DNA of 49,624 nucleotides, taken from NCBI GenBank assembly GCA_019752815.1, contig JAIELQ010000005.1, positions 1 to 49,624 of the forward strand, in the 5' to 3' direction. The notes beneath the pieces were generated by a model. That model searched no databases. It was not told the origin of the DNA and saw nothing but the letters and a program-made list of their open reading frames with translations. How positions within the stretch are numbered: position 1 is the stretch's first letter; every line of letters starts with the position of its first letter. This DNA is from Patescibacteria group bacterium. GTDB lineage: Bacteria; Patescibacteriota; Minisyncoccia; Phycocordibacterales; UBA918. Made by a program: the position numbers and the translations under genes. This document shows, piece after piece, positions 6,201 through 40,342 of the stretch.

Positions 6201-6925
6201 TGCCTGCCATCGTCAGTAAGTGTGAAGGTCTCGTCGTAGACATTCGTACCGAAGGACGTGAAAAGGTAATTGTGGTTTCTCCAGACATGGGTGCCAAAGG
6301 TGCTCCAAAGAAAAAAGATAACATTGAATACCCAGTTCACTACCGCCGTCAGGTGATTGTGAACAAGGGAGAGACTGTTATCTCAGGACAACTCCTCACT
6401 GATGGTTCAGCCTTGCTTCCAGAACTCTTCAAGTTCGGTGGTCAAGAAGTAGCTCAGGAATACATTATTTCTGAAGTAAACAAGATTTACGAACTCCAAG
6501 GGGTAACGATTGCGCGCAAGCACATTGAACTTATCGTGAAACAAATGATGTCTCGCGTGAAAGTAAACAGTACTGGTGACAGTCACTTTACCAACGGTGA
6601 CGTAGTTGAAGAATGGATCTTTATCGAAGCCAACAACAAGTTGAAAGCCGAAGGTAAAGAAGTGGCCAAGGCCGACCGTTTGATTCTCGGTATTACCGAA
6701 ACATCTCTCTCACGAAAGAGTTTCCTTTCAGCAGCGTCTTTCCAAAACACTACTCGAGTACTTATCAATGCTGCCGTTCGTGGTAGTGAAGATAACCTTG
6801 CCGGTTTGATGGAGAACGTTATTATCGGAAAACTTATTCCAGCTGGATCAGGATTTAAGGGAAGTAAGAAGTATGAGATGATGCAGCAGCTGCAGGGAGG
6901 AGCCACCCGCATCGACCGCGAGTAG
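3242..6925 (+). CDS. rpoC: DNA-directed RNA polymerase subunit beta'
   Basis: 1227-aa ORF with [15 protein letters not shown] catalytic motif and zinc-binding Cys motifs. Confidence 0.98.
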
Positions 6926-7050
6926 GAGAAATTCCACTACACACTCATCTGCGTTGTTGCGACTGCGAAGTTAGACGTTCACCGTACAAGGAGTACGGCT
7001 CACGCCCAACTTCTTGCGCGCCTAGCATCTGAGCACGTATTGAAATTCCT
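6925..7050 (+). repeat. Intergenic palindromic element, copy A
   Basis: Contains CATCTGCGTTGTTGC (6946-6960), CCGTAC-AAGGA-GTACGG (6982-6998), GCGCCTAGCATCT (7018-7030) and partly complementary outer arms (AATTCCACTACACACTCA vs rc AATTTCAATACGTGCTCA). Confidence 0.8.
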
Positions 7051-7090
7051 TTAATTGACGAAAGAGAGTAGTCGACAATTTAGAGAAAAC

Positions 7091-7113
7091 AAAAACCGCC
7101 TTCGGCGGTTTTT
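7091..7113 (+). terminator. Intrinsic terminator downstream of rpoBC
   Basis: AAAAACCGCC-TTC-GGCGGTTTTT followed by T-rich tract. Confidence 0.85.
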
Positions 7114-7118
7114 GTTTG

Positions 7119-7161
7119 TTTTTAAAAAAGAAAAACCCGCACCATGTTACTGAGCGGGTTT
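7119..7161 (-). terminator. Intrinsic terminator of the 7183-7752 gene
   Basis: AAACCCGC/GCGGGTTT stem with TTTTTCTTTTTT tail on the minus strand; near-copy at 10324-10366. Confidence 0.75.
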
Positions 7162-7182
7162 CGCTTAGTTTGGTGCGGGGGA

Positions 7183-7752
7183 TCAGTGCTTCTTGATGTC
7201 CGTGTCTTGCTCGACCGCCTGCTTCTTCGTCTCGTTCTGGGCCTCAGGGCTGAACAGAAACTCGACATCAAGACGGGGACGACCGTTGCCGAGATCGACA
7301 GCGACCGTGTACCGCTTTGTGACATCTTCGTATTTGATCCGTTGCCCATCGTCTTCGCCAAAACCAAAGCTCGATGGTGGAACTCGGTACGTGTGACCGA
7401 CATTGGTCGAGATTTCGATGGTTTTGCCATCTACTTCGGGGAAGATGTGCTTGATGATGGCGCCTACCACGAATGGCGAGATGTCTGCCCAGTCGAATGC
7501 ATCGCCGATCCCCACTGAAATCTCATACTGCGAGAGTGAACCGGAGCTGACACCTGGAATTTGCTCCAGCGCCTTGGATAGGGCGAGGGCAACAGCACCA
7601 GGTTTCTTTTTCTCGTCGAGCGACGAAAAAAAGTTGTCTTGGCCAAAGCCATAGTGTCGCACAGGGCACACGTCGCGAACGACGTGATATGAGCGACGGG
7701 TCGGGTTCGGATGCTGAACCATCTTGATGTGTGCTTTGATGTCGATGTCCAC
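7183..7752 (-). CDS. Hypothetical protein (accessory single-gene unit)
   Basis: Open frame; likely start is GTG at 7752 behind AGAAGGAG. The ORF-track ATG (7791) lies just after a TTGACT-N17-TATAAT promoter. Confidence 0.6.
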   Translation of the reverse strand: MDIDIKAHIKMVQHPNPTRRSYHVVRDVCPVRHYGFGQDNFFSSLDEKKKPGAVALALSKALEQIPGVSSGSLSQYEISVGIGDAFDWADISPFVVGAIIKHIFPEVDGKTIEISTNVGHTYRVPPSSFGFGEDDGQRIKYEDVTKRYTVAVDLGNGRPRLDVEFLFSPEAQNETKKQAVEQDTDIKKH

Positions 7753-7867
7753 AGGCAATCTCCTTCTGTTGTATAGTGAACTAATGTTCATATAGTATTA
7801 TACACAAAAAATAAAATAAGTCAATAGCTTACGATACTCCCAGCAATCAAGTATACTAGTGGCAATC

Positions 7868-7978
7868 ATGGCATCAGGGGACGCGGTACAGCAGATTAAG
7901 GATCGGCTCAATATTATTGATGTGATTTCACCGTATGCGGAGCTAGTAAATGAGCCCCACTTTGTTTCTTGCAACTGA
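7868..7978 (+). pseudogene. Truncated duplicate of the dnaG 5' end (36-aa remnant MASGDAVQQIKDRLNIIDVISPYAEL-VNEPHFVSCN)
   Basis: 7868-7944 matches dnaG 8536-8612 with 2 mismatches over 77 nt, both at third codon positions; similarity continues upstream into the TATACT promoter region. Confidence 0.85.
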
Positions 7979-8016
7979 TGATTTTATTGTTGGGCGGGTG
8001 GTAGAATTGGAGTAGT

Positions 8017-8406
8017 ATGAAAGACTTTAAACACTGGGTTGGCGTTAAGGAAAAACTCGATAGTTTACTTCATAAACCACCATTTGTGAGTGAGGGTGAT
8101 ATGTGGTGGGCGAGTATTGGTGAAAATGTCGGTTCGGAAATCGGTGGCAAAAGTGACCTGCACTCCAGACCGGTTATTATTTTGCGTAAGTTGTCCCATG
8201 GATTTTACTTTGTGATACCAACAACTACCAAAACCAAAGACGGTAGCTGGTATTTTTCCTTCACCCATGCTGAAAAAGTAACGACTGCCTGCCTTCACCA
8301 ATCAAGAGCAATCGACTATCGCCGACTGTCCTCAAAGTTAGGAACGTTAGCCGAACAAGATTTTGCAGATTTAAAGAGTGCGTTTAGAAATCTGTATAAA
8401 CTCTAA
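8017..8406 (+). CDS. PemK/MazF-like toxin-family protein
   Basis: 129 aa; GDMWWASIGENVGSEIGGKSDLHSRPVIILRKLS...QSRAIDYRRLSSKLGTL pattern typical of PemK-family; no antitoxin ORF adjacent. Confidence 0.7.
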   Translation: MKDFKHWVGVKEKLDSLLHKPPFVSEGDMWWASIGENVGSEIGGKSDLHSRPVIILRKLSHGFYFVIPTTTKTKDGSWYFSFTHAEKVTTACLHQSRAIDYRRLSSKLGTLAEQDFADLKSAFRNLYKL

Positions 8407-8414
8407 ACAATATT

Positions 8415-8436
8415 CCCCGCCTCTTGCGAGGCGGGG
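8415..8436 (+). terminator. Strong hairpin downstream of the PemK-like gene
   Basis: CCCCGCCTC-TTGC-GAGGCGGGG, 9-bp perfect stem; no U-tract. Confidence 0.55.
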
Positions 8437-8535
8437 CCGCGGGAAAACCCCGAATGTAAATAAAGTATAGCCAAATGGATAAAATATGTCAATATTTTAC
8501 CTAAAATTGCTCCATCAGGTATACTACTAGCAATT

Positions 8536-10302
8536 ATGGCATCAGGGGACGCGGTTCAGCAGATTAAAGATCGGCTCAATATTATTGATGTGATTTCACC
8601 GTATGCGGAGCTGACAAAGTCGGGGCGGCATTTTGTGGCGCGGTGTCCATTCCATTCGGAAAAGTCACCATCATTCCATGTGTCACCAGAACGCGGCACC
8701 TATCACTGTTTTGGCTGTGGGGTGGGGGGAGATATTTTTTCGTTTATTCAAGCAATTGATGGAGTGGAATTCAAAGATGCACTCAAGACCCTCGCCGAAC
8801 GTGCGGGTGTTGAACTGGTGCCAGAAAACCCACAAAAGAAAACCGAACGCGATGAGTTGGTGGCCGTCATTGAAGCCGCTACAAGCTACTATGAGAATCA
8901 GCTACCTAACATGGTAGATGCGACAGCGTATTTAGAGCGTCGTGGTGTCACTAAAGAAACAATTAAAAAGTGGCGCATCGGGTATGCTCCGGGTCCGCCG
9001 CTTGCTGGCTGGCGCGAGCTCAAGACCCATTTGATTAACGAGAAGTTTTTACCGGGCACGATGTTAAAGGCCGGCCTAATTAAAAGTGCCGAAGGTGGCA
9101 AAGAACCATTTGATACATTTCGCGACCGTATTATGTTTCCACTGCGTGACCAGGCGGGGCGGGTAGTGGGTTTCTCGGGAAGGATATTGGCAAAAGATAC
9201 TGATGCGCCGAAATACGTGAATTCACCGGAAACTGAGCTCTACCACAAATCAGAATTACTGTACGGGTACGATATGGCGAAACACGGTATTCGTAATTTA
9301 GGTTTTTGGATTATTGTCGAAGGGCAGTTTGATGTGGTGATGAGTCACCAAGCAGGGTATACCAATACCGTCGCTGTTTCAGGGACCGCATTGACACTCC
9401 ATCATGTGCAGTTGCTGGAACGACTTTCAACCAAGGTCGTGCTCGCGCTTGATTCAGACAAAGCCGGAATTGCCGCCATGAAAAAATCTGCTGACCTCAT
9501 GCTACGGCGGGGGATTGATGTGAAAGTCGCTGCTATGCCTGATGGCGCCGATCCGGCTGATATGATTTTGGCTGACCCTAAATCATTTAAAACTGCTGTG
9601 GGACATGCGGTCCATATCATCGAATTTTTACTCGCGCATTTACGCAAAGAAAATGCCGATGACCGAGCGTATAAATTAAAAGCCACGGCCGAGGTGATGC
9701 CGTTTATCACCCTCATTCCTAATATGATTGACCGCGATCATTTTGAAGGCGTGACTGCAACAGCGCTTGGCACAACCAAAGACGCTGTACATGCTGAGGT
9801 GTTGCGGTTGCTTGAGGAACAAAAGCGCCAACCGGTGCAATACAAAGAAGTAACTGTAGAAAAAACACCTACCCCACAAAACGAAACTATGACCGCAATT
9901 TTACGCAAAGAGGGTACCCTCCATTATCTACTGGCTGCGCTGACTATTGTGCCTGAACCAGTGCGAGAAGTCTTGGAGCGAGAAATTGCGGTAATTGTGA
10001 GTCCCGAGGTATTAGAGAGTGAGCGCATAAATGGCAGCGCCCACATATCGAAACTGACCTTCCAAATCGAGCAATTTATCGAAAAAAGTAGTTACCGATT
10101 GCAAATTGAAGAGTTCACCCACAAGCTCAACCAATTGCACAAATTAACGGTAGAAGGGAAGTTGGCCCAAGAAAAAGCCCAATTGAAGGAGATTGAAAGT
10201 TCTGGACAAGGGGACACCATGCCGGTGTTGCTTCGAGTAAATGAGCTACGGCGACAACTCCAAGCTAATGAGTATCAAGTCTCAATATTTCCAAAGCTCT
10301 AA
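8536..10302 (+). CDS. dnaG: DNA primase
   Basis: 588 aa; zinc-ribbon CPFHSEKSPSFHVSPERGTYHCFGCGVGGD and TOPRIM motifs. Confidence 0.96.
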   Translation: MASGDAVQQIKDRLNIIDVISPYAELTKSGRHFVARCPFHSEKSPSFHVSPERGTYHCFGCGVGGDIFSFIQAIDGVEFKDALKTLAERAGVELVPENPQKKTERDELVAVIEAATSYYENQLPNMVDATAYLERRGVTKETIKKWRIGYAPGPPLAGWRELKTHLINEKFLPGTMLKAGLIKSAEGGKEPFDTFRDRIMFPLRDQAGRVVGFSGRILAKDTDAPKYVNSPETELYHKSELLYGYDMAKHGIRNLGFWIIVEGQFDVVMSHQAGYTNTVAVSGTALTLHHVQLLERLSTKVVLALDSDKAGIAAMKKSADLMLRRGIDVKVAAMPDGADPADMILADPKSFKTAVGHAVHIIEFLLAHLRKENADDRAYKLKATAEVMPFITLIPNMIDRDHFEGVTATALGTTKDAVHAEVLRLLEEQKRQPVQYKEVTVEKTPTPQNETMTAILRKEGTLHYLLAALTIVPEPVREVLEREIAVIVSPEVLESERINGSAHISKLTFQIEQFIEKSSYRLQIEEFTHKLNQLHKLTVEGKLAQEKAQLKEIESSGQGDTMPVLLRVNELRRQLQANEYQVSIFPKL

Positions 10303-10323
10303 TTGTTTCTTTCTTAGTTAACT

Positions 10324-10368
10324 TTTTTAAAAAAGAAAATCCCGTAGCATGTTGCTGAGCGGGATTTT
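10324..10368 (-). terminator. Intrinsic terminator of the 10400-10738 gene
   Basis: AAAATCCCG/CGGGATTTT stem, TTTTCTTTTTT tail on minus strand; near-copy of 7119-7161. Confidence 0.75.
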
Positions 10369-10399
10369 AACAGGAAAACGGAGCGTCACTCGACGTCAC

Positions 10400-10738
10400 T
10401 TATTTCACAAAATTTTCTTCGATAAATTGGGTCATGCTGGAAAGAGCTGCGCTGTCTTTGTGAGGATGTTTTTGCTCAAGAACAACGTAATCAAAGGAAA
10501 TGACTATACTGAAATACTCACGTACTTCTCCTATGACTTCTTCGATCAACAGTACCATATAGGGGAGTGGCCTCTTTTTGGCGCCTTTCTTGTTGACATA
10601 AATGTGATGAAGTTGATTCAGACGCACGCCCTCACCAGCAAGTACCTCTTTGAGGCGAAGAGTCTCTTCACCCTTAGGTCCAAGTGCCTTCGCGCGACGT
10701 AAGGCATAATGGATGCTTTTAGTGGTCATCATTGGCAT
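10400..10738 (-). CDS. Hypothetical protein between dnaG and rpoD (antisense orientation)
   Basis: 112 aa, own TTGACT/TATATA promoter upstream and terminator downstream. Confidence 0.65.
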   Translation of the reverse strand: MPMMTTKSIHYALRRAKALGPKGEETLRLKEVLAGEGVRLNQLHHIYVNKKGAKKRPLPYMVLLIEEVIGEVREYFSIVISFDYVVLEQKHPHKDSAALSSMTQFIEENFVK

Positions 10739-10891
10739 GGTGCTTTTCTCCAGCTCTAGTCGTTTACTGAGGCGTTTCTGTTAATGTTTATATAATAATG
10801 TAATACATTAGTCAATGAGTAGTATTTTTAGGGAAAACTACCCCGTAAACACTGGACATTTTCAAGTTTTTCTGTATAGTATCAGGTACCT

Positions 10892-12316
10892 ATGGCAGTC
10901 AAGAAAAAAGCCAATTCAAGCAGTAAAAAAGCGGTCAAAACCGTTAAAAAAGTCACAAAAAAACCGGTAGCAAAAAAGACTCCAAAGAAAGTCGTTGCAC
11001 CAAAAAAGATGGTAGTTAAAAAACCAGCGGCCAAGAAGGTAGTTAAAAAAGTTACTAAAAAAGCGACTCCTCACAAGGCAGTGGCTAAAAAAGTCGTATC
11101 AAAAAAACCAGCCAAGCAACCTGTAAAAAAAGTAGCGGTTAAGCAACCAGTTAAAAAAGTTGTCACCAAAACCAAATCAGCACCGGTAGTCAAAGAGGCT
11201 CCAAAAAAAGTTGTTCCAGAAGTTAAACTTAAATTAACCAAAAGTGAAAAGGTGTTGGAGCTTAAAGCAGCTGAACTCATGAAGCTTGGTCGTGAACGTG
11301 GGTATGTTACCTATGACGAACTTTTACGCTCATTTCCTGAAATTGAAAAAGACGTGATGTTCCTCGATGACCTGTACGAACGCTTTAGTGTGGCCGGTAT
11401 CGATGTGTTGAAGTCAGGTGGTATGTTGGGTGATGATCCGGCTGAAGAATTATTGGCTCAGAAAAATGCCTTCAAGCGTAACGACAGTAGTTACGACTCG
11501 ATTCAAATGTACCTCCGTGAAATCGGACAGTACCCACTCTTAAATGCACATGAAGAACGAGTGCTCGCCAAACGTATCGTTGATGGTGATGATGAAGCCC
11601 GCAACCTCCTTGCTCGGGCTAACCTCCGTCTCGTAGTTTCCATTGCGAAAAAATATGTTGGTCGTTCCCCTGACCTGACACTCCTCGACCTCATTCAAGA
11701 AGGGAACCTTGGACTCTTCAAAGCCGTTGATAAATTCGATTTTACCAAAGGCTTTAAATTTTCAACCTACGCTACCTGGTGGATTCGCCAAGCGATTACT
11801 CGGGCGCTCGCTGACCAGTCACGAACGATTCGTATTCCAGTGCACATGGTTGAAACGATGGCTAAATATAAACAGGTGTCACGCCGATTATCACAAGACC
11901 TTGGTCGTGATCCAATGCCAGAGGAAATTGCGACCGAAATGGGTGTTGAGGTAGAGAAAATTTACCAAATCGAAAAAATTAGTCAGGACACCATTTCGCT
12001 CGAACTACCAATTGGTGACGAAGACGATAACTCACGCTTATCTGACTTTATCGCTGACGATAAAATTACCGCACCCGACCAGGAAGTATCACACAGTATC
12101 TTAACTGATCAGATTACCGAGATTCTCGATACACTGTCTGAAAAAGAACGGAAAATTCTTGAGATGCGTCACGGGCTACTTGATGGTACGTATCATACGC
12201 TCGAAGAAGTAGGGAAGGAATTTGGCGTAACACGAGAACGTATTCGACAGATTGAGGCGAAGGCTCTCGAGAAGATACGTCAACACGAAAAAGCGAGACG
12301 TCTCAAGTCATACTAA
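10892..12316 (+). CDS. rpoD: RNA polymerase primary sigma factor with Lys-rich N-terminal extension
   Basis: Sigma-70 regions 2-4 ([52 protein letters not shown]); first about 110 aa are K/V/A/P-rich. Confidence 0.95.
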
Positions 12317-12317
12317 G

Positions 12318-12440
12318 AGGAGCTTCCAAAACCCACGCATCTGCGGCGTTGTCACTTTCACTCAAGTCCTCACCGTACAAAAAGTACGGCTCGAACTTTC
12401 GCTCGGTGACACCTTGCATCTACCCACGTTTTGAAACCTC
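12318..12440 (+). repeat. Intergenic palindromic element, copy B
   Basis: GAGG..TTCCAAAAC / GTTTTGAAACCTC outer arms, CCGTAC-AAAAA-GTACGG centre (12373-12389). Confidence 0.75.
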
Positions 12441-12469
12441 ATCGGAGACGGTGTAGTTCAGAAAAACAA

Positions 12470-12494
12470 AAACCGCCTCACGGGGCGGTTTTTG
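12470..12494 (+). terminator. Intrinsic terminator downstream of rpoD
   Basis: AAAACCGCC-TCACG-GGGCGGTTTTT. Confidence 0.8.
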
Positions 12495-12560
12495 ATTAAT
12501 TGTAAAAAAGAAAACCCCGGCGAACCGCTAGGGTTTCCGGAGTTGCTGAACCTGAAAAGA

Positions 12561-12755: not shown

Positions 12756-12913
12756 TTTCTTGCTCCAAGTTGGTTATGCACTTTTACTATAGTAGCACAA
12801 ATAATTATAAAAGTCAATACAGTGTTATTGTAGATAAATTAATAGGTTAGAGCTATTCACTAAAAGAGTAATAAAGTGGTCGGTATTAGCTTGGGGTTTG
12901 TTACAATATCAAC

Positions 12914-13690
12914 ATGACGAACAAGTGGTTCTTTTTGTTGTTTATTTCTATCTATACGTTATGTACGGCACTGATTTTGGTGTGGGCCGATGCTTCGTTT
13001 TTGATCGTAACCGCACTGCTGTTTGGAGCACCGATTTTTGTGCTTTGGAATCGACTGCAGCTGAAATCCCATCTTGTGCCCTTGGTGGCCACCTTTACCT
13101 TGCTTACGACCGCCATTATTCAAATTTACGCTTATAAGAGTGGTTTGTGGTACGAACTGTCACCATTATCGTTTGCTGTGTTTGGCGGGGCACCCCTTGA
13201 AACCTACATCTTTTCGGTGCTTCATATTTTGTATTTGATACTCTTGTATGAGTACTTTTTTGACGACGGTACGAGCACAAAACGAACTAGTATTTCTCCG
13301 CGCGGACTAGGAATACTGGGTGTTATGTACGCATTGATTCTCGGTATTATTTACACTGACTCGACGATATTGGTGTCGTACCCGTTTGCGTTTTTGTTGG
13401 CGTTCATGAGTTCATTGTTTGCGGTGATGATACTAGTGCGCAAAAGTATGCCGCCACTAGCGTTGTTTAAAAAAGCGGGGTTGTTTGCTGTTGTCACGCT
13501 GCCACTGTCATTAATTTACGAATGGATACTCCTCGAAAACGGCATTCGCTTGTTTGCGAACGTAAACGAATATATTGGATATTTTGAATGGGACTATCAG
13601 GTGATCCCGGTTGAGCAGTTCCTCTTACTACTGATTGTACCGTTTGGGTTGGTGATGTTGTATGAAATGTATATTGACGACAGTCATTAG
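12914..13690 (+). CDS. Lycopene cyclase domain-like integral membrane protein
   Basis: Two similar segments (GAPLETYIFSVLHILYLILLYEYFFDD and VIPVEQFLLLLIVPFGLVMLYEMYIDD) resembling the P-x-E-E...YE motif of CrtYc/d-type cyclases. Confidence 0.55.
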   Translation: MTNKWFFLLFISIYTLCTALILVWADASFLIVTALLFGAPIFVLWNRLQLKSHLVPLVATFTLLTTAIIQIYAYKSGLWYELSPLSFAVFGGAPLETYIFSVLHILYLILLYEYFFDDGTSTKRTSISPRGLGILGVMYALILGIIYTDSTILVSYPFAFLLAFMSSLFAVMILVRKSMPPLALFKKAGLFAVVTLPLSLIYEWILLENGIRLFANVNEYIGYFEWDYQVIPVEQFLLLLIVPFGLVMLYEMYIDDSH

Positions 13691-13955
13691 AACTCCCAAA
13701 ACTGGTGAATGAAGAAACGAGTGAGAAATGCCAGGGCATTTCGCAAGAGGTTGCCAGCTATTTTGTAAAAATAGCGACAACCCGTACAGCTTCTGTAAGA
13801 AGTAGCGATTATTCTGAATTTATGTTGCTGGAAAATAAGGAGCTTGCGACTATATTTTCTGTATGCAGAGCCGAGATTTTTCCTCCTAAGGAAAATCGCT
13901 GGACCGCATTTCGTTGCTTTCTCACCCCTAGCACTGCACTCAGTTTTGGAAATTC
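13690..13955 (+). repeat. Compound palindromic element, copy H (outer arms plus two nested modules)
   Basis: CCAAAACTG / CAGTTTTGG outer arms; 64-nt module 13739-13802 shared with copy C; module 13804-13908 shared with copy I. Confidence 0.8.
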
Positions 13956-20202: not shown

Positions 20203-21012
20203 ATGACTATTTTTGAGGCTATTATTCTTGGGCTCGTGCAGGGTGTAACAGAGTTTCTACCGATTTCGTCGTCGGGGCACCTCATTTTAATGCGCGATTT
20301 ACTTAATCTTGAAGTAGATGGAGCGCTTGCGTTTGATGCTGTCTTGCAACTAGCTACCGTATTGGCAGTAATATTGTATTTCCGTAATGATTTGTGGGTA
20401 TTAAGCCAAACAGCCCTTCGAAAGCTCGGACGCTTACCGGTTAATCAAAAAGACCTGACGTTACTCTATGCATTGCTGATTGGTACAGTCCCTGCAGTAG
20501 TTGTCGGTTTGTTTTTGGAGTCGACGATGGAGACATTGTTTAGGTCACCACTTTTGGTTGCGGGTGTGCTTGTTGTTGGTTCGTTTTTGTTTATTTACGC
20601 TGAGTGGGTTTACAGTAAAACTGTACCGCAAAATGAAATGACCATTAAAAAAGGTTTTCAGATCGGTTTGTTTCAGTGTCTGGCGTTAATCCCGGGAATG
20701 TCCAGATCAGGCGCTTCAATTGCCGGGGGTATGTTGCTCGGTCTCACTCGTGCCGAGGCGGCTCGCTTTTCGTTTCTCCTCGCGATTCCAATTCTCTTGG
20801 GTGCCGGTAGTAAAAAACTGATTGACTTGATTCAGATTGGGGGAGATGTGTCGTGGGGAGCACTTATTGTGGGGTCTCTTGTAGCATTTGGTACAGGATT
20901 GTTTGCTATTCATTTTTTACTACAGTTTGTAAGGCGGCATACCTTGTGGCCGTTTATTTGGTATCGGTTACTCCTCGCTTTATTCGTCGCCTACACCGTC
21001 CTTGTTGCTTAA
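20203..21012 (+). CDS. uppP: Undecaprenyl-diphosphatase
   Basis: GLVQGVTEFLPISSSGHLIL and PGMSRSGASI motifs. Confidence 0.95.
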   Translation: MTIFEAIILGLVQGVTEFLPISSSGHLILMRDLLNLEVDGALAFDAVLQLATVLAVILYFRNDLWVLSQTALRKLGRLPVNQKDLTLLYALLIGTVPAVVVGLFLESTMETLFRSPLLVAGVLVVGSFLFIYAEWVYSKTVPQNEMTIKKGFQIGLFQCLALIPGMSRSGASIAGGMLLGLTRAEAARFSFLLAIPILLGAGSKKLIDLIQIGGDVSWGALIVGSLVAFGTGLFAIHFLLQFVRRHTLWPFIWYRLLLALFVAYTVLVA

Positions 21013-21214
21013 ACGTCTAAAATCACTTCATCTACTGCCTTACATTTCGATAAATAATCTTCACTGTACAAAAAGTACGGCTCACCTTATTTTTCTCGTC
21101 CTTCTTACAGAAGCTGTACAGGTTGTCGCTCTTTTTCCAAAAGAGCTGGCAACCTCTTGCGAAAGCGCCCCCACGCTTTCTCATCTTGTATCTATAGCAA
21201 TTTAAAACGTTTAG
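21011..21214 (+). repeat. Compound palindromic element, copy C
   Basis: TAAACGTCTAAAAT outer arm complementary to AAAACGTTTA; CTGTAC-AAAAA-GTACGG centre; contains inverted copy (21101-21164) of the copy H 64-nt module. Confidence 0.8.
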
Positions 21215-26308: not shown

Positions 26309-27073
26309 ATGTCAGACAACACTAATGTGCCGATGTTGGAGATTAGGGATTTGGTAAAGGTGTATAAAGGGGGAAAGAAAAAGGACGACAAAACTGCCGT
26401 TGATGGCATTAATTTATCTATCCCGCGCGGGGCGTTTTTTGGATTGCTTGGTCCCAATGGGGCGGGGAAGTCGACGACAATTCATTGTATTACAGGCATT
26501 GCACAACCGACGACTGGGCAGATTTTAATTGATGGTGTAGATGTGGTGGCTGACTACAAACTGGCTCGTACCAAAGTCGGTCTCTCGCCCCAGGAATTTA
26601 ACGTAGATATTTTCTCAACCCCAGTAGAACTGATGGATTACATGGGTGGGTATTATGGTATTCCGCAAGAAGCAAAAATGAAGCGGATTAATGAATTGAT
26701 TGCCCAATTTGATTTGGAAGAACACCGCAATGTAAAGTTTCAAAAATTATCAGGCGGACTAAAGCGTCGGGCGATGTTAGGACGGGCACTGGTTCATACT
26801 CCAGACCTACTCATTCTCGACGAGCCAACAGCCGGAGTTGATGTTGAACAACGCCGAGCACTGTGGGCATATCTGAAGAAGTTAAACGAAGACGGTAAGA
26901 CCATCATTCTCACCTCGCACTACTTGGAAGAGATTCAGTATCTATGCCGAGATATTGCAATTATTAATCATGGCAAGATTGTGGCATCTGGCACCAAAGA
27001 AGAGTTTATGAAAGATGGAAAATCAATTGAGGAAGCGTATCTGGCGGTTATTAGTGAATCTGACAACAAGTAA
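26309..27073 (+). CDS. ABC transporter ATP-binding protein
   Basis: Walker A GPNGAGKST, LSGGLKRR signature, LLILDEPTAGVD. Confidence 0.92.
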   Translation: MSDNTNVPMLEIRDLVKVYKGGKKKDDKTAVDGINLSIPRGAFFGLLGPNGAGKSTTIHCITGIAQPTTGQILIDGVDVVADYKLARTKVGLSPQEFNVDIFSTPVELMDYMGGYYGIPQEAKMKRINELIAQFDLEEHRNVKFQKLSGGLKRRAMLGRALVHTPDLLILDEPTAGVDVEQRRALWAYLKKLNEDGKTIILTSHYLEEIQYLCRDIAIINHGKIVASGTKEEFMKDGKSIEEAYLAVISESDNK

Positions 27074-27074
27074 T

Positions 27075-27989
27075 ATGCAAAACCCAGAAAACAAAAAAAT
27101 GGCCGGTGGTTCTGTGGTGGATGAAATGCGAGGCGCGCAAGAACCTGCGACTGAGGCGTATCGCGCATACGACGAAGAGCAGGTGCGCAGCGGCAACAAA
27201 GCAGTTCGCCAGCACAGGACTACCGGAGTAAACTGGATAGGGTTGTATACGATGCTACGGAGGGAGGTTAAACGAACCCTGCGTGTATCGATTCAAACTC
27301 TCGCCGCGCCGGTTATTTCAGCTGCCTTGTATATTTTTATTTTTGGAACGGTGATTGGTACAAAAATTGATGACTTTGCGGGTGTGCCGTACATTTCGTT
27401 TGTGTTCCCGGGAGTCTTGATGCTCTCGATAATCAATGCCAGTTTTTCGAGTGCATCATCGGCGTTGTTCTTTATGAAGTTCACACGTGGGATTGAGGAA
27501 ATTTTAATCACGCCGTTTTCGTACCTCGAAATGTTAGTTGGGTTTGTGGGGAGTGCTGTGGCGCGGGCTATGATTGTGGCGTTCCTGATTCTGATTGTGG
27601 GAGTATTGTTTGGAGCAGTTACACTCACCAATCCACTCATGTTCATATTTTATGTTGCGGCTATTTCGGCTATCTTTGCGATGTTGGGAATTATCGTAGC
27701 CTTGTGGGCCGAGGGGTTTGAGCAGCTGCAGATGTTAAATACGTTTGTGATTACACCACTGACGTATCTTGGGGGTATCTTCTATTCGATTACCATGTTG
27801 CCTGCACTCGCCGCCCAAATTACGGTCCTTAATCCGTTCTTTTATTTTGCCGATGGTATTCGTGGCGCCATGATTGGCTACCATGAAGCTAATCAGCTTG
27901 TAGGCTTGGTAATTACCGTTGGTTTAGTTCTGGTTCTCGGCACCTTGGTAACACAGATATTTAAACGTGGTTGGAAAATCCGAGCATAG
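27075..27989 (+). CDS. ABC-2 type transporter permease
   Basis: Six-TM-like protein directly downstream of the ATPase. Confidence 0.85.
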   Translation: MQNPENKKMAGGSVVDEMRGAQEPATEAYRAYDEEQVRSGNKAVRQHRTTGVNWIGLYTMLRREVKRTLRVSIQTLAAPVISAALYIFIFGTVIGTKIDDFAGVPYISFVFPGVLMLSIINASFSSASSALFFMKFTRGIEEILITPFSYLEMLVGFVGSAVARAMIVAFLILIVGVLFGAVTLTNPLMFIFYVAAISAIFAMLGIIVALWAEGFEQLQMLNTFVITPLTYLGGIFYSITMLPALAAQITVLNPFFYFADGIRGAMIGYHEANQLVGLVITVGLVLVLGTLVTQIFKRGWKIRA

Positions 27990-27994
27990 TAATC

Positions 27995-28096
27995 TAAAAA
28001 TCACCATCTGCGTTGTTGCTCGGTCGCTCGCTTTTCACCGTACAGATGTACGGCTCATACGCTCACTCGGTCGCGCCTAGCATCTTAGTGATTTTG
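27995..28096 (+). repeat. Intergenic palindromic element, copy D
   Basis: AAAATCAC (27997-28004) / GTGATTTT (28088-28095) arms; CATCTGCGTTGTTGC 28005-28019; CCGTAC-AGAT-GTACGG 28038-28053; GCGCCTAGCATCT 28073-28085. Confidence 0.85.
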
Positions 28097-28171
28097 TAGA
28101 ATACTATTATGATGTTAGTTGAGCTCGTGCGAAAAATATAGTTTAATACACAACAGAAAAAGGAGATGACG

Positions 28172-29479: not shown

Positions 29480-29596
29480 GGGCACATCCAAAAATTGAAT
29501 GAAGAAATGAGCGTTGCGATTATTCTGAATTTATGTCCCGTTTTCCCTCCTAAGGAAAATCGCTGGACCGCAATCTCCTCAACTTTTTGTGAACGA
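29480..29596 (+). repeat. Compound palindromic element, copy I
   Basis: Shares GCGATTATTCTGAATTTATGT (29516-29536) and TTTTCCCTCCTAAGGAAAATCGCTGGACCGCA (29541-29572) with copy H; outer arms CACATCCAAAAATTGA / TCAACTTTTTGTG. Confidence 0.8.
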
Positions 29597-33160: not shown

Positions 33161-33163
33161 AAT

Positions 33164-35134
33164 ATGGCGCGCGCACTTACTCTTGGAAACGGCAACATGC
33201 TGGTTGGTATTGATTATCGCGGACAAGTGCGCGACTTGTATTGGCCGTATGTCGGACAAACCAATCATGTTAGTGGCGCCAGTGGCAGCTTCGTTCACCG
33301 CATCGGCGTGTATGTCGAAGATACTATGTACTGGCTTGATGATGCCAGTTGGGATATTACGATTGGTGCTGTCGGAGACAGTGTGCTCGGTAACTTCACC
33401 GCCGTACATCAAACAGCCCAGGTGACACTCTCGAGTAAAGATGCCGTACATAACGAGCATGATGTGTTTATTCGTCAGTTTACGCTTGTTAACAATAGTG
33501 AAGAGCCGCGTGAACTTAAACTTTTTTTAGCACAACAATTTCGGATTGGTGAATCCAGGCGAGGAGACACAGCATTTTATGATCCTCGTGTTGGTGCGAT
33601 TATTCACTACAAAGGTGATGATACGTTTTTAATTAATGCGACCCAAAATGGAAAACAATTTACCGAATTTACGATTGGACTGTTTGGTATTGAAGGTCGT
33701 GAGGGTGCTTACCATGATGCCTATGATGGTGTTTTAGAAAAAAATCCAATTGAACATGGATCAGTAGATTCTATTATAGGCTTTACCGCGCAACTAGACG
33801 CCGGAGAAAGTAGTGATATTTCCTACTGGATTGCTGCGGGGGAGTCAATCCCAAAAACCCATACCCTGGATGCCTTTGTGATTGAGGAAACACCAGAGCG
33901 GTTGCGGGCTTCAACTGATGCCTATTGGCGAGCCTGGCTTACCAAAGACGGTCGTGACATCTCTGCATTATCGCAATCACTTCAAACATTGTACCGACGA
34001 TCATTGGCCACGATTCGTGTTCATACTGATAACCGCGGAGGAATTATCGCCAGTAGTGACACTGATATGTTGCATCATGGACGAGATACATACAGTTACG
34101 TCTGGCCCCGTGACGGTGCATTAATCGCGCACGCACTTGATCAAACTGGATACAACGAGGTGGCCGAACGATTCTTTTCGTTTATGTCCAAGTGCCAAGA
34201 GCCAGCTGGGTATTTAATGCATAAATATTTAACGGACGGTTCGTTAGGTAGTTCGTGGCACCCATGGCTCCAAAATGGGCAAGCCTATTTACCGATTCAA
34301 GAAGATGAGACAGCGAGCGTGTTGTTTATGCTGTGGCGACATTATGAACTAACCAAAGATTTAGAGTTTATCGAAGGTCTCTATAATTCATTTATCGAAC
34401 CAGCTGCTAAATTTATGTGTGAGTATATTGAACCGCTCACAGGACTGCCCTCAGCATCATTTGATTTATGGGAAGAGAAATACGGTACTTCAACCTACAC
34501 CGCAGCGTCTGTATACGGGGGACTGATGGCAGCGATGCGATTTGCGAGTTTGCTCGGTAAAGATAACGATGCGCGTACTTGGCAGGTTGTTGCCTCACGC
34601 ATGCAGAAGGCCATTGTAGGGGTGCTGTATGATCCTGATATAAAAATGTTTGTAAAGCACGTGACGCATACCGAAGATGGGGAATTAGTGTTTGATCGTA
34701 CAATTGATACTAGTAGTTTCCATGGAGTGGTATTTTTTGAGGTGTTAGAACCGGACGATGCACTCGTCAAGACTTCACTTAAAACGATTGAAAAAGTATT
34801 ACAAGTAGAGGGTAGTAGCAAAGGCTTTATTCGCTACCAACATGATCGCTACTATACGATGCAAGAAGCTGGCAGTCCAAACCCGTGGGTTATCTGTACA
34901 CTCTGGATTGCACAGTACTATATCCGGATTGCTAAAAAAGCAGCTGACTTGAAACCAGCTATGGAACTACTTGAATGGACCGCATCACACGCTTCACCAT
35001 CAGGAACGTTGTCTGAGCAAATGCATCCGCATACGCGCGAGCATTTGTCGACGTCGCCTTTAATCTGGAGTCATGCCGAATATGTTTTGACAGTCGACCT
35101 TTACCTGCGCAAGGTACAATCGTTTGCCAAGTAG
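33164..35134 (+). CDS. Glycoside hydrolase family 15 (glucoamylase-like)
   Basis: YSYVWPRDGALIAHALD, FDLWEEKYGTSTYTAASVYGGL, EQMHPHTREHLSTSPLIWSHAEYV. Confidence 0.93.
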   Translation: MARALTLGNGNMLVGIDYRGQVRDLYWPYVGQTNHVSGASGSFVHRIGVYVEDTMYWLDDASWDITIGAVGDSVLGNFTAVHQTAQVTLSSKDAVHNEHDVFIRQFTLVNNSEEPRELKLFLAQQFRIGESRRGDTAFYDPRVGAIIHYKGDDTFLINATQNGKQFTEFTIGLFGIEGREGAYHDAYDGVLEKNPIEHGSVDSIIGFTAQLDAGESSDISYWIAAGESIPKTHTLDAFVIEETPERLRASTDAYWRAWLTKDGRDISALSQSLQTLYRRSLATIRVHTDNRGGIIASSDTDMLHHGRDTYSYVWPRDGALIAHALDQTGYNEVAERFFSFMSKCQEPAGYLMHKYLTDGSLGSSWHPWLQNGQAYLPIQEDETASVLFMLWRHYELTKDLEFIEGLYNSFIEPAAKFMCEYIEPLTGLPSASFDLWEEKYGTSTYTAASVYGGLMAAMRFASLLGKDNDARTWQVVASRMQKAIVGVLYDPDIKMFVKHVTHTEDGELVFDRTIDTSSFHGVVFFEVLEPDDALVKTSLKTIEKVLQVEGSSKGFIRYQHDRYYTMQEAGSPNPWVICTLWIAQYYIRIAKKAADLKPAMELLEWTASHASPSGTLSEQMHPHTREHLSTSPLIWSHAEYVLTVDLYLRKVQSFAK

Positions 35135-35135
35135 T

Positions 35136-35255
35136 AACGAAAAAATACTCCATCTACGTTGTTGCTGCTCGCACTCAAGCATTCAATGTGCAAAAAGCAC
35201 ACCTCATGCTTTCGCACTCACGCGCCTAGTATCTGAAGCATTTTATCGTCACTTC
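35136..35255 (+). repeat. Intergenic palindromic element, copy E
   Basis: CATCTACGTTGTTGC 35151-35165, centre TGTGC-AAAAA-GCACA, GCGCCTAGTATCT 35222-35234. Confidence 0.8.
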
Positions 35256-35271
35256 AGAGTATTCTTTAAGC

Positions 35272-36090: not shown

Positions 36091-36106
36091 AATTTCTACT
36101 CTAACA

Positions 36107-36193
36107 TTTAGCCCGTTAGAAGTACAAATGTAAATTATTTAAATTTTTTAGGTATCATTTAGTTGTCTTGGAGATAACTTCTAACGGGCTAAA
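36107..36193. repeat. 87-bp element bounded by perfect 17-bp inverted repeats
   Basis: TTTAGCCCGTTAGAAGT (36107-36123) and ACTTCTAACGGGCTAAA (36177-36193), 53-nt AT-rich spacer. Confidence 0.85.
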
Positions 36194-36244
36194 AAGGAAA
36201 GAGCCGGACAAAAGAATGCCGGCTCCTGTATGCGACCTGTGACC

Positions 36245-36571
36245 TCAAGAGGTCGGTGCATCATTGCACTGAGGTTTGAATTCGTCAAAACGAATCCATT
36301 CCCCGTTGTAGTAAATGCGCTCGTTCCCGTCTTCATCCTCGACATATGAATCGAGCAGGGGATTGTCCTCGGTGACGAGCTTCACGAACACCTGCGATCC
36401 ACTGCATGACACAACTTGCCACGGGAAGTCTTCCATGAAGTCGATATCATCCGGGTTCACCGTGGTGAAGTTGTGAATGACTTCTGCTTCAGTGCATGTG
36501 CACAGAGCTTCTTGGGCAGTCGCGTTGGTGGCGAAAGCGATAACGAGAAGTGCTGCAACGAAAAGTTTCAT
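36245..36571 (-). CDS. Secreted hypothetical protein
   Basis: Signal peptide MKLFVAALLVIAFATNATAQ; own TTGATT-N17-TACTAT promoter and GAGCCGG...CCGGCTC terminator. Confidence 0.65.
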   Translation of the reverse strand: MKLFVAALLVIAFATNATAQEALCTCTEAEVIHNFTTVNPDDIDFMEDFPWQVVSCSGSQVFVKLVTEDNPLLDSYVEDEDGNERIYYNGEWIRFDEFKPQCNDAPTS

Positions 36572-36680
36572 TTTCCTGTCCTCGTAACTGGCTGGTCGAG
36601 CGTTGGTGCCGACCTTGTCCAGTTACTATAGTACCATAGATTTATGTAAAAATCAAGTACTGGAGGATAAAATCTATAAC

Positions 36681-37658
36681 TTAGGCCATATTTTCTTCAT
36701 CCTGCGCGTCTTCCTCGTCTTCGATTTCAGACTGAATAATTTCTTCGATAATGTCTTCAAGAGACAACACACCAATGGCTTCACCAGAGCTTTTTTCTAC
36801 AATCGCAATGTGTTGTTTCTTTTTAAGCATGCGGGCGAGCACGGTATCGAGGTAGGCACTGCCTTTGAGGCGCATAATGTTGGTATCAAAAGCCTCTTCG
36901 GTTTGTTTGATAGAAATATTTTCGTCTTCAGTCAGGAGATCTTTGGCAAAGAGTACACCAACTACATTAGTTTTGTTGCCACTATAGATGGGGAATCGAG
37001 AATAGCCCTGTTCAGAAACTTCATTAAAAAACTGATCGTTCAAACGTTGGTTTTCATCAAACATGGCTACGTTTTCAATGGGGGTCATTACTTCACGAAC
37101 TTGCCGGTGTGAAAACTGCAGAGCACCATGCACAATACGTTCCTCATCTGCATCGATTGGACTGTGTTCTGAATCTTCATGTTCAGAAATAATCTGCATG
37201 ATCTCGTGTTTGGAATACATCGCTGGGGTAGCGTGACCGAGTAATCGATCGAGTGTATATGCCACCGGGAAGGCAACTGGATAGCCAATAAACATAAGTG
37301 CCCGAGTAAGTGGTGCTAGCGCACTCCCAAATTTGAGTGCATGTCGTGAAAACAATGCCTGGGGACCAATTTCACCAAAAATAAAAATAAGGGCAGTGGC
37401 CATAAAACTCGCCATAACACCACTTGCCAAAGAACCAAGAAATACTGAAAGAATGGTATTAACGGTGACGTTGCCTAATAGTAGGGTGGTAAGTAGTAAA
37501 TTACCTCGTGCTCGTAGTGGATAGATGGCGATAGCTTGTGGGTCACCGGTGTTGGCACGACGACGCAGTGAAGCGAGATCAAGCGAGAAATACGCCAAAG
37601 TCAGCCCGGAGAAAATCGCCGAACAGACAATAAGAAACAGTGAAATTATTAGGGTCAC
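36681..37658 (-). CDS. CNNM/CorC-like (DUF21 + CBS) membrane protein
   Basis: N-terminal DUF21 TM region, EVMTPIENVAMFDENQ, tandem CBS, VLSLEDIIEEIIQSEIEDE. Confidence 0.85.
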   Translation of the reverse strand: MTLIISLFLIVCSAIFSGLTLAYFSLDLASLRRRANTGDPQAIAIYPLRARGNLLLTTLLLGNVTVNTILSVFLGSLASGVMASFMATALIFIFGEIGPQALFSRHALKFGSALAPLTRALMFIGYPVAFPVAYTLDRLLGHATPAMYSKHEIMQIISEHEDSEHSPIDADEERIVHGALQFSHRQVREVMTPIENVAMFDENQRLNDQFFNEVSEQGYSRFPIYSGNKTNVVGVLFAKDLLTEDENISIKQTEEAFDTNIMRLKGSAYLDTVLARMLKKKQHIAIVEKSSGEAIGVLSLEDIIEEIIQSEIEDEEDAQDEENMA

Positions 37659-37667
37659 GATAGGGGA

Positions 37668-37757
37668 TTAGATAGGTTCACCACCTAGGAATGAGTTCAC
37701 GATAAGCAGAAGCACAAAGCCTGCGAGCACGAGAATAAGAAATTTCATATAACTCAT
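37668..37757 (-). CDS. 29-aa single-TM microprotein
   Basis: Hand translation MSYMKFLILVLAGFVLLLIVNSFLGGEPI*, between CNNM gene and terminator. Confidence 0.45.
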   Translation of the reverse strand: MSYMKFLILVLAGFVLLLIVNSFLGGEPI

Positions 37758-37783
37758 ACAATACCACATTTTCCCGTATCGTA

Positions 37784-37822
37784 AACAAAAACAACCTCCC
37801 GTGAGGGAGGTTGTTTTTGTTA
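37784..37822. terminator. Palindromic terminator flanking HNH gene (left)
   Basis: AAACAAAAACAACCTCCCGTGAGGGAGGTTGTTTTTGTT. Confidence 0.8.
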
Positions 37823-37842
37823 TAAATCATTGCGACCATTAG

Positions 37843-38538
37843 TTACATAATCTTAGCTCCTTTTTCCAGATTGTGACGAGCGCATAATAGTTGAATATTT
37901 TTTGCGTCATCACTGCGCCCACCCTTAGAGTAAGGTAATACGTGGTCATAGTGTAAGCCGTCACCAGCACCACAGGTGGTACATTTGCCGCCGTCGCGTT
38001 TCCATACTTCAACTTTGACATGTGCTGGTATCATCCGTTCGTGAGTATATTCAAAAATTTTATCAGGGTTTTGTGCACTGACCTGTTTTGGATGTAAGTG
38101 GAAGGTGAAGACTTTTCTGTTTCCGCGCACAATGATTTCCGCATTTAATAATTCAAACAAACCTTTGTCGTACCAAATACCAGGCATCAATTTTTCATAT
38201 ACTTGAATTTCGAGCGGTGTAGTTCGTTCACTGTTTTTATATCGTTCAGACTCTCGGAAAAATTTACCATTATCAGTCAAGGTGCTTCCGCTAGAGTACA
38301 TCGGTTGATCAATTTCTTTGCGTTTGTCTCCAGCGCCATACACATCATGACCCTCATAAATTAATATTTGTTTTTCTTCATCCCACACATCTGCGTAGGG
38401 TGCATTATCTTTAACCGACATCAAGAAGACAGATGGTCGACTATCTTTTCTAAAATTCATTCCTTTTTGCAAATGAGCCTTTTCTTTGATTACCAATTCG
38501 AGGTACGAAATGATTTGGGTAGAATTACGATTATCCAT
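37843..38538 (-). CDS. HNH endonuclease with N-terminal recognition-like domain
   Basis: C-terminal RDGGKCTTCGAGDGLHYDHVLPYSKGGRSDDAKNIQLLCARHN. Confidence 0.85.
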   Translation of the reverse strand: MDNRNSTQIISYLELVIKEKAHLQKGMNFRKDSRPSVFLMSVKDNAPYADVWDEEKQILIYEGHDVYGAGDKRKEIDQPMYSSGSTLTDNGKFFRESERYKNSERTTPLEIQVYEKLMPGIWYDKGLFELLNAEIIVRGNRKVFTFHLHPKQVSAQNPDKIFEYTHERMIPAHVKVEVWKRDGGKCTTCGAGDGLHYDHVLPYSKGGRSDDAKNIQLLCARHNLEKGAKIM

Positions 38539-38617
38539 GTTTGCAGCTTATCACGTTAGATATTTTATTGCAGCAAAGTTTAAAGTTGTTGAGTAAGAGC
38601 CGTATATCTTCAATAGC

Positions 38618-38656
38618 AAACACAAAACAACCTCCCGTGAGGGAGGTTGTTTTTTA
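38618..38656. terminator. Palindromic terminator flanking HNH gene (right)
   Basis: AAACACAAAACAACCTCCCGTGAGGGAGGTTGTTTTTTAA; same AACAACCTCCCGTGAGGGAGGTTGTT core as the left one. Confidence 0.8.
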
Positions 38657-38673
38657 ATCAACTAAGTTACTGA

Positions 38674-38792
38674 AAGGTTTCAAAAATAGATGGATTCCTA
38701 GGCGATGGAGTAAAATATTTGGAGACGTATTTTTATACGGCGGAAAATATTTTGCGAACAGCAACAACGGAAGGCGCTATTTTTGGAGACTG
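38674..38792 (-). repeat. Intergenic palindromic element, copy G
   Basis: Minus-strand skeleton CGTTGTTGC...CGTAT-AAAA-ATACG...CGCCTAG; outer arms CAAAAATAG/CTATTTTTG. Confidence 0.7.
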
Positions 38793-38795
38793 ATA

Positions 38796-40199
38796 TTATT
38801 TAGTGACGAACGTAAGAGCCATCCCTTTCTGATCAGCCCGTCCCGTTCGGCCGATGCGGTGCACATAATCTTCGTAGGCATTTGGAAGGTCGTAGTTGAT
38901 AACGTGTGAGACGTTGTCTACGTGAATACCGCGGGCTGCCACGTCGGTTGCTACCAGCACTTGTACGCGACCAGTTTTAAAGTTCTGGAGAGCACGTTGA
39001 CGTTGTGGGTGACTCTTGTTTCCGTGAATCGCGTCGGCTTTGATACCAGCACGAGACAGTTCCTGTGAGAGCTTTTCTACACTGTGCTTCATGGCGCCGA
39101 AGATAATCACGCGAGTAAAGTCAGGTTTTTTAAGAAGGGCAGTGAGCGTGTCGAACTTGGTGTGTGGTTCGTAGTACACCACGTCTTGGGTGATACTGCC
39201 GGTAATATCTTTTTTACGAACTGAAACCGTAATTGGGTCATTCATAAATTCATGAATCAAACCTTTTACCGTGTCAGACATTGTGGCAGAGAAGAATAGA
39301 GTTTCGTGTGGGTCTGGCACGTCTTTCAAAATTGCGCGCATGTCATGGATGAATCCCATGTCGAGCATCCGGTCAGCTTCGTCGAGGATGATAGTTGAGA
39401 ATCCGGCAGGTTTAATGTGACCACGGTCAATCAAGTCTTGCACACGTCCTGGAGTACCAATAATGAAATGGTTCTGACGTTTAAGTCCCATGATTTGAGG
39501 ACGGATGTTCATACCACCTACACAAACGGTTGAAAAGATTTTCATCTTCTCAGTTAACTTTTTAAGTTCTTGTTCAACCTGAATTGCAAGTTCGCGCGTT
39601 GGGGCTAGTACTAATGTCTGTCGATTGTATTGCTTGAGGGTTTTGTTGATAGTTGGGATAAGAAACGCAGCTGTTTTTCCTGTACCAGTTTGTGCGAGTC
39701 CTACAACATCACGACCATCCATTATGTGCGGGATGATTTGATCTTGAATCGGTGATGGAATTGTGAGACCCATGTTGGTAATCGTGGTAACAAGCGGTTG
39801 CTCGAGACCAAAGGTTTTGAAGGTGTGAGTGGCCTTGTACACTTCTTCGGTCGCACTCGTATCTACCGGGTTAAGGTTGATGTATTTTGAAACGTCAAAG
39901 GTTTGCATTTTGCGTCCACCACGTCCGCCGCCAGAACGACCACTTGATCCACGACCACTACCACTTGAAAATGGGCGACGGCCTTGGCGTTGTGCCGGGC
40001 TAGAAAAACTACGTGCATGACCATTACCAGAGCGGTCAGTTGATGGAGCTGAGTATGAACGACGAGCGCCACCCGAGGCACTTTCGCCTCGACTAGCGTT
40101 ACTACTAAAACGACGTGCTCCTCCAGCTGCATGTCCACCAGTGCGGGGACGACTAGAAAAAGCGGGTTTCCGACTAGGTCGGCTTGTTGATGAATACAT
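38796..40199 (-). CDS. DEAD-box RNA helicase with N-terminal S/R/G-rich extension
   Basis: AQTGTGKTAAFLIP, LDEADRMLDMGF, FFSATMSD, VATDVAARGIHV, HRIGRTGRA; first about 95 aa S/R/G-rich. Confidence 0.93.
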   Translation of the reverse strand: MYSSTSRPSRKPAFSSRPRTGGHAAGGARRFSSNASRGESASGGARRSYSAPSTDRSGNGHARSFSSPAQRQGRRPFSSGSGRGSSGRSGGGRGGRKMQTFDVSKYINLNPVDTSATEEVYKATHTFKTFGLEQPLVTTITNMGLTIPSPIQDQIIPHIMDGRDVVGLAQTGTGKTAAFLIPTINKTLKQYNRQTLVLAPTRELAIQVEQELKKLTEKMKIFSTVCVGGMNIRPQIMGLKRQNHFIIGTPGRVQDLIDRGHIKPAGFSTIILDEADRMLDMGFIHDMRAILKDVPDPHETLFFSATMSDTVKGLIHEFMNDPITVSVRKKDITGSITQDVVYYEPHTKFDTLTALLKKPDFTRVIIFGAMKHSVEKLSQELSRAGIKADAIHGNKSHPQRQRALQNFKTGRVQVLVATDVAARGIHVDNVSHVINYDLPNAYEDYVHRIGRTGRADQKGMALTFVTK

Positions 40200-40220
40200 A
40201 TATTAGAATAATCTCAGTTA

Positions 40221-40342
40221 GAGACCAAGGTAAACGAGGGCAGTTCTAGGCGTGGAAGTTAATTTTTCTTGAGCCGTACTTTTCGTACGGTGAGAAAAAA
40301 TTAACGCACCACAACAACGAAATGCGCCGTTTACGTTGGTCG
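40221..40342 (-). repeat. Intergenic palindromic element, copy F
   Basis: GACCAAGGTAAACG (40223-40236) vs CGTTTACGTTGGTC (40328-40341), 13/14 paired; GTTAATTTTT...AAAAATTAAC; CCGTAC-TTTTC-GTACGG. Confidence 0.85.

Follow-up and report, generated by a model that had tools for sequence, protein, structure and literature searches.

A 49,624-nucleotide (nt) stretch of the genome of a Patescibacteria group bacterium (contig JAIELQ010000005.1, positions 1 to 49,624 of the forward strand; called the window below) contains intergenic imperfect palindromes whose outer arms differ from copy to copy, which raises the question of what these palindromes are and which molecule folds. We identified a family of DNA-encoded, rod-like hairpins, ~110-150 nt long per copy, with a fold that is conserved on the strand antisense to the upstream gene. 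A preliminary description of the window had proposed nine copies, A to I. A covariance model of the bottom strand, i.e., the strand antisense to the upstream gene, recovered A, B, D, E, F, and G with E-values from 2e-30 to 3e-19; this model (R2) was used for all window E-values and for the genus and order scans. Only the tip of copy C belongs to the family, H and I consist mainly of other repeat modules, and copy J, which lies on the other strand (27089-27241, E 9e-15), had been overlooked.

The elements are not confined to the window. A scan of the 1.04-Mb source genome (G000; other G and L labels denote compared genomes and element loci), a Nomurabacteria-like member of the Paceibacteria, with a second covariance model (R1) gave 82 matches, which is not a chance level, as the preliminary description had expected of a genuine family. 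The sequence pattern CGTTG-40..70-CGCCTAG matched 16 times in this 1.04 Mb compared to once for the reversed control pattern, and five times within the window compared to 0.2 times in shuffled sequences. With R2 the family was found in 28 of the 30 genomes of the same genus, at 2-82 copies each. With R1 and stricter filters its distribution over the class was patchy, with at least one copy in 16 of 93 genomes; several other carriers had 8-49 copies, among them Treponema vincentii with 49 and Rokubacteria AR34 with 8. In the order to which T. vincentii belongs, R2 detected the family in 6 of 39 genomes, and a strict motif search matched 27 GTDB contigs, among which Paceibacteria predominated. 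Judged by identical match positions, G057 appears to duplicate G012 and G056 to duplicate G040. The window contained no match to Rfam 15 at the gathering score, and six loci of the Candidate Phyla Radiation (CPR) gave tRNA alone; viral, phage, and plasmid collections gave no real matches (one query being a hand-written consensus), and sequence and topic searches of the open-licence literature found no paper describing the elements. A match to a characterised repeat or RNA family, which the preliminary description had also considered, was thus not found, and the elements constitute a new family of structured elements, a variant of dispersed palindromic elements with a real chance of being more.

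Read on the gene strand, the elements share the motif pair CNNYGTTG/CGCCTNG, a TCA/CTC loop beside the apical stem CCGTAC..GTACGG, and a ring of AAAA/TTTT, so that three short conserved internal-loop motifs are set between helices of free sequence. Direct reading and folding both confirmed that the outer arms differ among copies yet pair within each copy. A sequence-only MAFFT alignment of 17 copies from the source genome gave a gene-strand consensus in which 28 of 36 pairs were compensatory, at -19.4 kcal/mol; the reverse-complement (bottom-strand) consensus had 46 pairs, 38 of them compensatory, at -47.5 kcal/mol. The preliminary description had written the element on the gene strand, and its motifs stand, with the opposite strand as the folding one. 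Covariation, on which the proposal of a selected structure had been made to depend, is present. In an alignment of 109 distinct sequences, drawn from the genus and from one additional genome, 92.0% of the cells were paired, compared to 62.9% after shuffling and 35-43% after sliding. In the same alignment (A3), 43 of the 46 pairs had double-sided changes and the covariation score was 0.750 compared to 0.204 in a shuffle null that retains the relatedness among the sequences; this alignment is biased in favour of the model to which it was fitted, whereas the two earlier alignments were not fitted. Double substitutions in the helices were also found at two orthologous pairs of loci, L021/L033 and L038/L047. 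The conserved fold is beyond doubt real, and that it is under selection is strongly supported.

To which strand this fold belongs follows from its mismatches. Among the gene-strand helix cells of the 17 copies, 515 were Watson-Crick pairs, 31 were A.C, and three were G.T. Folding of 107 elements with G.U pairs forbidden, so that neither strand was favoured, gave 120 A.C and 5 G.T single mismatches on the gene strand, whereas 409 ordinary terminator-like hairpins treated by the identical procedure gave 20 A.C and 23 G.T. Because an A.C on the gene strand is a G.T on the opposite strand, pairing has been kept on the strand antisense to the upstream gene. The ratio of A.C to G.T was 60:5 within the locus-specific outer arms, indicating that these too are kept paired on the antisense strand. 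All 46 elements of the first set were more stable on that strand, with a mean gain of 15 kcal/mol with RNA parameters and 4.7 kcal/mol with DNA parameters. The bias was found with a co-directional next gene (75:9) as well as with a convergent one (51:0). The functional form of the element is the strand antisense to the upstream gene.

The elements also have a preferred position relative to genes. In CPR loci, about 39 of 44 elements of the first set (counted by eye) and 37 of 48 of the second set (32/40 in G000 and 5/8 in G046) directly follow a gene on the same strand. The core begins 9-33 nt after the stop codon in a single orientation, with two groups at ~13 and ~25 nt, and the earlier statement that the start of most copies is only a few nt away from a stop codon is valid for the whole family, with copy J as an exception to gene-end placement. 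In the near group the outer helix takes in the stop codon and often the last codons, and the right arm is the complement of coding sequence (e.g., L163, L171, L187, and L212). The genes upstream of elements are ordinary core genes. Profile searches identified rpoC and genes for a sigma factor, UppP, an ABC permease, and a DEAD-box helicase upstream of elements, and sequence reading identified EF-Tu, S12, GyrA, SSB, and ATP synthase subunit c. The T. vincentii elements lie in either orientation, and their outer arms are conserved from copy to copy. At the site of copy D, relatives of the same genus carry either the element (G004 and G010) or a terminator directly after the stop codon (G002, G005, G007, and G019); at the site of copy E, G002 and G010 have an ordinary terminator directly after the stop codon, and in some relatives nothing obvious occurs at either slot. 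The ordinary terminators in relatives indicate that the element occupies a terminator slot. Separate forward terminators were somewhat fewer at element-bearing gene ends (20/57 vs. 25/44, P 0.043, one of many tests). Forward -35 motifs are enriched beside elements and bottom-strand -35 motifs are not, and a bottom-strand promoter beside the element was rejected on this ground.

Comparison of copies and sites revealed which parts of the element are inherited and which are exchanged. Eleven of 40 elements from other species follow orthologs of element-bearing G000 genes, where two to three would be expected with 5-8% of the genes bearing elements, and sites are therefore partly inherited. The sequence itself nevertheless changes rapidly. 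Between copies with tips that are 92-99% alike (some 97-99%), the similarity of the outer arms is close to background (0.47). At the rpoC site, L164 and L270 have common arms and different tips, L168 and L169 have a common tip and different rings, and both pairs switch at the CGTTG..CCTNG loop. The element thus consists of locus-specific outer helices with modular tips. The longest exact complementary run between arms averaged 10.6 in young copies, 8.4 in the remaining copies, and 5.3 between arms of different copies; the longer runs in young copies are suggestive, the young group having been picked by hand. The preliminary description had also considered that the element copies flanking sequence, and this idea gained some support from near-identical tips with unrelated self-complementary arms and from right arms that can complement the last codons of the gene. 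L164 lies on contig C19, which carries a second rpoC 3' end with 99.8% protein and 90% DNA identity to window positions 3242-6925 and a different element; this contig probably derives from a related strain or species binned with the source genome, for which a contamination of 2.12% is stated.

Of the explanations considered, we tentatively favour a bottom-strand hairpin of single-stranded DNA, which would not be an integron attC site but would resemble one in its behaviour. That the folded molecule is single-stranded DNA, that a recombinase acts on the hairpin, that template switching gave rise to the right arm, and that transcription is affected in any way are what we infer from the patterns described above. 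The bottom strand would fold as single-stranded DNA and be recognised by structure and not by sequence; what spreads or is swapped would be the tip or core, and the conserved loops would provide the breakpoints. The outermost helix would be made on site, the right arm being an inverted copy of 15-25 nt at the gene end that would arise by hairpin template switching at installation and then stay matched, and some copies may also mark operon ends. The persistence of the wobble bias in co-directional contexts, where an antisense promoter motif is not enriched, and the patchy copy number among genomes argue for this single-stranded DNA hairpin. A more far-reaching version is doubtful, namely that a structure-recognised single-stranded DNA hairpin system distinct from integrons exists across the Paceibacteria and in Treponema and Rokubacteria, attaches to the 3' ends of core genes, swaps tips at conserved loops, and copies the gene end inverted as its outer helix.

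Several observations weigh against a single-stranded DNA hairpin. No enzyme was identified for the elements in the carrier genomes searched. Generic tyrosine recombinases (PF00589) occur in every tested carrier with more than two copies, but these enzymes are found almost everywhere, even in G023, which has zero copies, so that a tyrosine recombinase is uninformative as a marker. No case was found in which an inserted element could be set against an empty counterpart of its site. A purely selfish element would need neither the sites common to species (11/40) nor the covariation of arms in place. The wobble bias is compatible with single-stranded DNA and RNA alike and is a little stronger in convergent contexts (51:0), and the bottom strand has a terminator-like anatomy in 53/93 elements compared to 16/93 on the top strand. 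A ready-made palindromic target as the source of the outer arms was also considered and rejected, because none of the element-free D and E sites of 20 relatives, at high divergence, has such a palindrome; they have terminators or short gaps. In the related genomes G046 and G047, one element each (G046:C8:82347-82489 and G047:C72:1697-1840) directly follows the single Xer-like tyrosine recombinase gene, which may reflect chance or shared descent.

The strongest alternative is that the rod is formed by an antisense or convergent transcript, which would be terminated or processed at this point and so be kept from running into the 3' end of the core gene; the element would be a specialised one-way or bidirectional terminator with protein-binding internal loops. 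Such an antisense-side RNA or terminator is possible and almost as likely as the single-stranded DNA hairpin. The terminator-like anatomy just mentioned, a bottom-strand hairpin of more than 20 pairs that reaches to within 3 nt of a T4 run, supports this explanation, and the lower number of separate forward terminators at element-bearing ends, the ordinary terminators at the D and E sites of relatives, the strength of the wobble bias in convergent contexts, and the G.U and G.A mismatches, which are typical of RNA, are all consistent with it. On the other hand, a strong bias is also seen ahead of a nearby co-directional gene, it is the forward and not the bottom-strand -35 motif that is enriched, a terminator needs neither an outer helix extending past the T run nor conserved internal loops, and the orientation is mixed in T. 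vincentii.

It is unlikely that the elements have no function at all and are inverted repeats homogenised and lengthened by template switching (quasipalindrome correction) in a way that mimics covariation. Homogenisation of inverted-repeat arms by template switching is a known mutational process (PMC8604942, PMC7202029), and the arms match neighbouring coding ends; but this process predicts no wobble preference for one strand, whereas the locus-specific arms show a ratio of 60:5, and it leaves unexplained why the loops CGTTG, CCTNG, and TCA/CTC are kept across phyla. Less probable still is a 3'-untranslated region (UTR) hairpin in the sense mRNA, protecting the message of the upstream gene or ending it. 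The fixed sense-orientation place after the stop codon would suit such a hairpin, and a forward promoter or terminator usually lies downstream of the element, which therefore lies within the 3' UTR; the excess of A.C over G.T on the sense strand (120 vs. 5) and the lower stability of that strand in 46/46 elements argue against it.

Mobile-element explanations are the least likely. A retro-element, in which a bottom-sense RNA is copied into gene ends by target-primed reverse transcription, would make the folded strand RNA and could yield the inverted arm by snap-back of the cDNA, but it is very improbable, since arms and sites persist between species; a required reverse transcriptase was rejected, RVT_1 (PF00078) being absent from the heavy carriers G005, G012, G013, and G060. 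REP/BIME-type elements moved by a Y1 (RAYT) transposase are hardly credible. The dispersed intergenic palindromes with single-strand asymmetry and the one Y1-like gene in G000 would suit them, but that gene has no flanking copies, Y1 (PF01797) is absent from the carriers G050, G051, G052, and G060 (8-49 copies), and a weak trend between Y1 and copy number within the genus failed in other carriers.

The copies in the window illustrate these features. Copy A (6911-7065, folded strand -, R2 E 5e-27) follows rpoC (NCBIfam), with CGTTG at 6952 and CCTAG ending at 7025 on the + strand, and shares CATCTGCGTTGTTGC and GCGCCTAGCATCT exactly with copy D, as first noted from direct reading. Copy B (12303-12455, folded strand -, E 2e-22) follows an RpoD-like sigma factor gene and is of the CGGCGTTG/CACCTTG subtype. 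Copy D (27971-28120, folded strand -, E 3e-19) follows an ABC transporter permease gene, the stop codon of which lies inside the outer helix. Copy E (35116-35269, folded strand -, E 2e-28) follows a glucoamylase-like gene, and its apical stem is indeed altered to TGTGC/GCACA from the usual CCGTAC/GTACGG. Two copies fold on the + strand and have a minus gene-strand orientation: copy G (38660-38809, E 1e-27) directly follows a DEAD-box RNA helicase gene, and copy F (40206-40359, E 2e-30) lies between the DEAD-box helicase gene and a + strand gene at 40511, with no called stop codon directly before it. Copy J (27089-27241, folded strand +) is located at the 5' side of the ABC permease open reading frame (ORF); it overlaps the 5' part of ORF 27015-27989, ahead of the region that aligns with ABC permease models, and its hairpin may be translated as an N-terminal extension of this ORF.

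The regions C and H are composites on the - strand. Region C (21011-21214) combines a ring and a tip (21046-21096, R2 E 1e-6) of the family with an inverted module M (21101-21164). Region H (13690-13955) has an outer ring that resembles the ring of the family, CCAAAACTG...CCCTAGCACTGCACTCAGTTTTGG, and its interior is occupied by modules M and N. Region I (29480-29596, strand not assigned) is module N without the family core. H and I, which had been listed as related copies, gave no R2 match and were rejected as family members. Module M (GAGAAAG..CTTTCGCAAGAGGTTGCCAGC..GCGACAACCTGTACAGCTTCTGTAAGAAG) has ~25 genome matches in both orientations, with window copies at 13690-13955 and 21101-21164, and was also located within the apical loop of the family member L077. 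Module N (GAATGAAGAAACGAGCGTAGCGATTATTCTGAATTT..CTCCTAAGGAAAATCGCTGGACC) occurs in the window at 13690-13955 and 29480-29596. Separate intrinsic terminators, with no strand assigned, lie downstream of copy A (7082-7120, AAAAACCGCC..GGCGGTTTTTG) and copy G (38624-38654). The latter is one of two identical 31-nt terminators, the other being at 37788-37818, 836 nt apart (AAAACAACCTCCCGTGAGGGAGGTTGTTTTT). The window also contains a 99-nt repeat, 94% identical, at 7846-7944 and 8514-8612; the second copy spans the start of a 588-amino-acid ORF at 8536, and the first, upstream, is a partial copy of the start of this gene.

CPR genomes are small, so that 82 elaborate hairpins behind rpoC, EF-Tu, rpsL, gyrA, ssb, and other genes constitute a notable load. 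The family is a clear case of a structure that is strictly kept while its sequence is free, on the non-messenger strand. With the strand assigned, the function becomes testable as that of either single-stranded DNA or antisense RNA. A DNA element that is recognised by structure outside integrons would widen the known range of hairpin recombination, and an antisense-side terminator would be a novel mode of controlling transcription at the ends of genes. The locus-specific arms allow the origin of inverted copies of flanking sequence to be tested, and the covariance model can be converted into an annotation family.

Among known systems, the attC sites of integrons, of which the bottom strand folds and is recognised by structure (PMC2727003), resemble the elements in several respects. 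Both are imperfect palindromes with a variable sequence and a conserved structure, both lie 3' of a gene in one orientation (PMC2727003, PMC3053210), and in both the antisense (bottom) strand folds. The elements differ in that the R'' (RYYYAAC) and R' (GTTRRRY) boxes at the hairpin ends are present in 0/133 elements on either strand, with 0.64 expected in shuffled sequences, and attC sites were rejected as an identity for the elements because these defining boxes are lacking. Furthermore, the elements are dispersed after single-copy core genes without cassette arrays, only generic PF00589 recombinases were seen, and the helix is longer and includes coding ends. With intrinsic (bidirectional) terminators the elements share an A-run, hairpin, and T-run beside the stop codon and an identical slot in relatives. 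They differ from these in their conserved internal loops, in a helix that extends past the T run, in a strand bias that ordinary terminators lack, and in the separate terminators found beside about a third of the elements; a stem followed by a U run, as an intrinsic terminator requires on the gene strand, occurs there in 16/93 elements and on the opposite strand in 53/93.

REP/BIME elements with RAYT, ERIC, and Correia elements are dispersed, mostly intergenic imperfect palindromes of 30-150 nt that occur in many copies and are recognised by conserved sequence. The elements too are dispersed, many-copy imperfect palindromes, although their helices vary freely, wobbles fix the strand, the outer arms are locus-specific, and Y1 is dispensable. 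The Treponema TD-1 and TD-2 families (RF03155 and RF03162, clan CL00124) are likewise repeated structured elements with variable hairpin arms. Nine of 13 T. vincentii copies (L198-L210) have them in their 3-kb loci, with TD-2 often within ~150 nt of the element, just downstream and on the same strand as its gene-strand orientation. TD-1 and TD-2 have another consensus, however, with no match on the element itself and none in the CPR loci scanned. TD-1 and TD-2 are the nearest catalogued neighbours of the family described here, which is a separate element.

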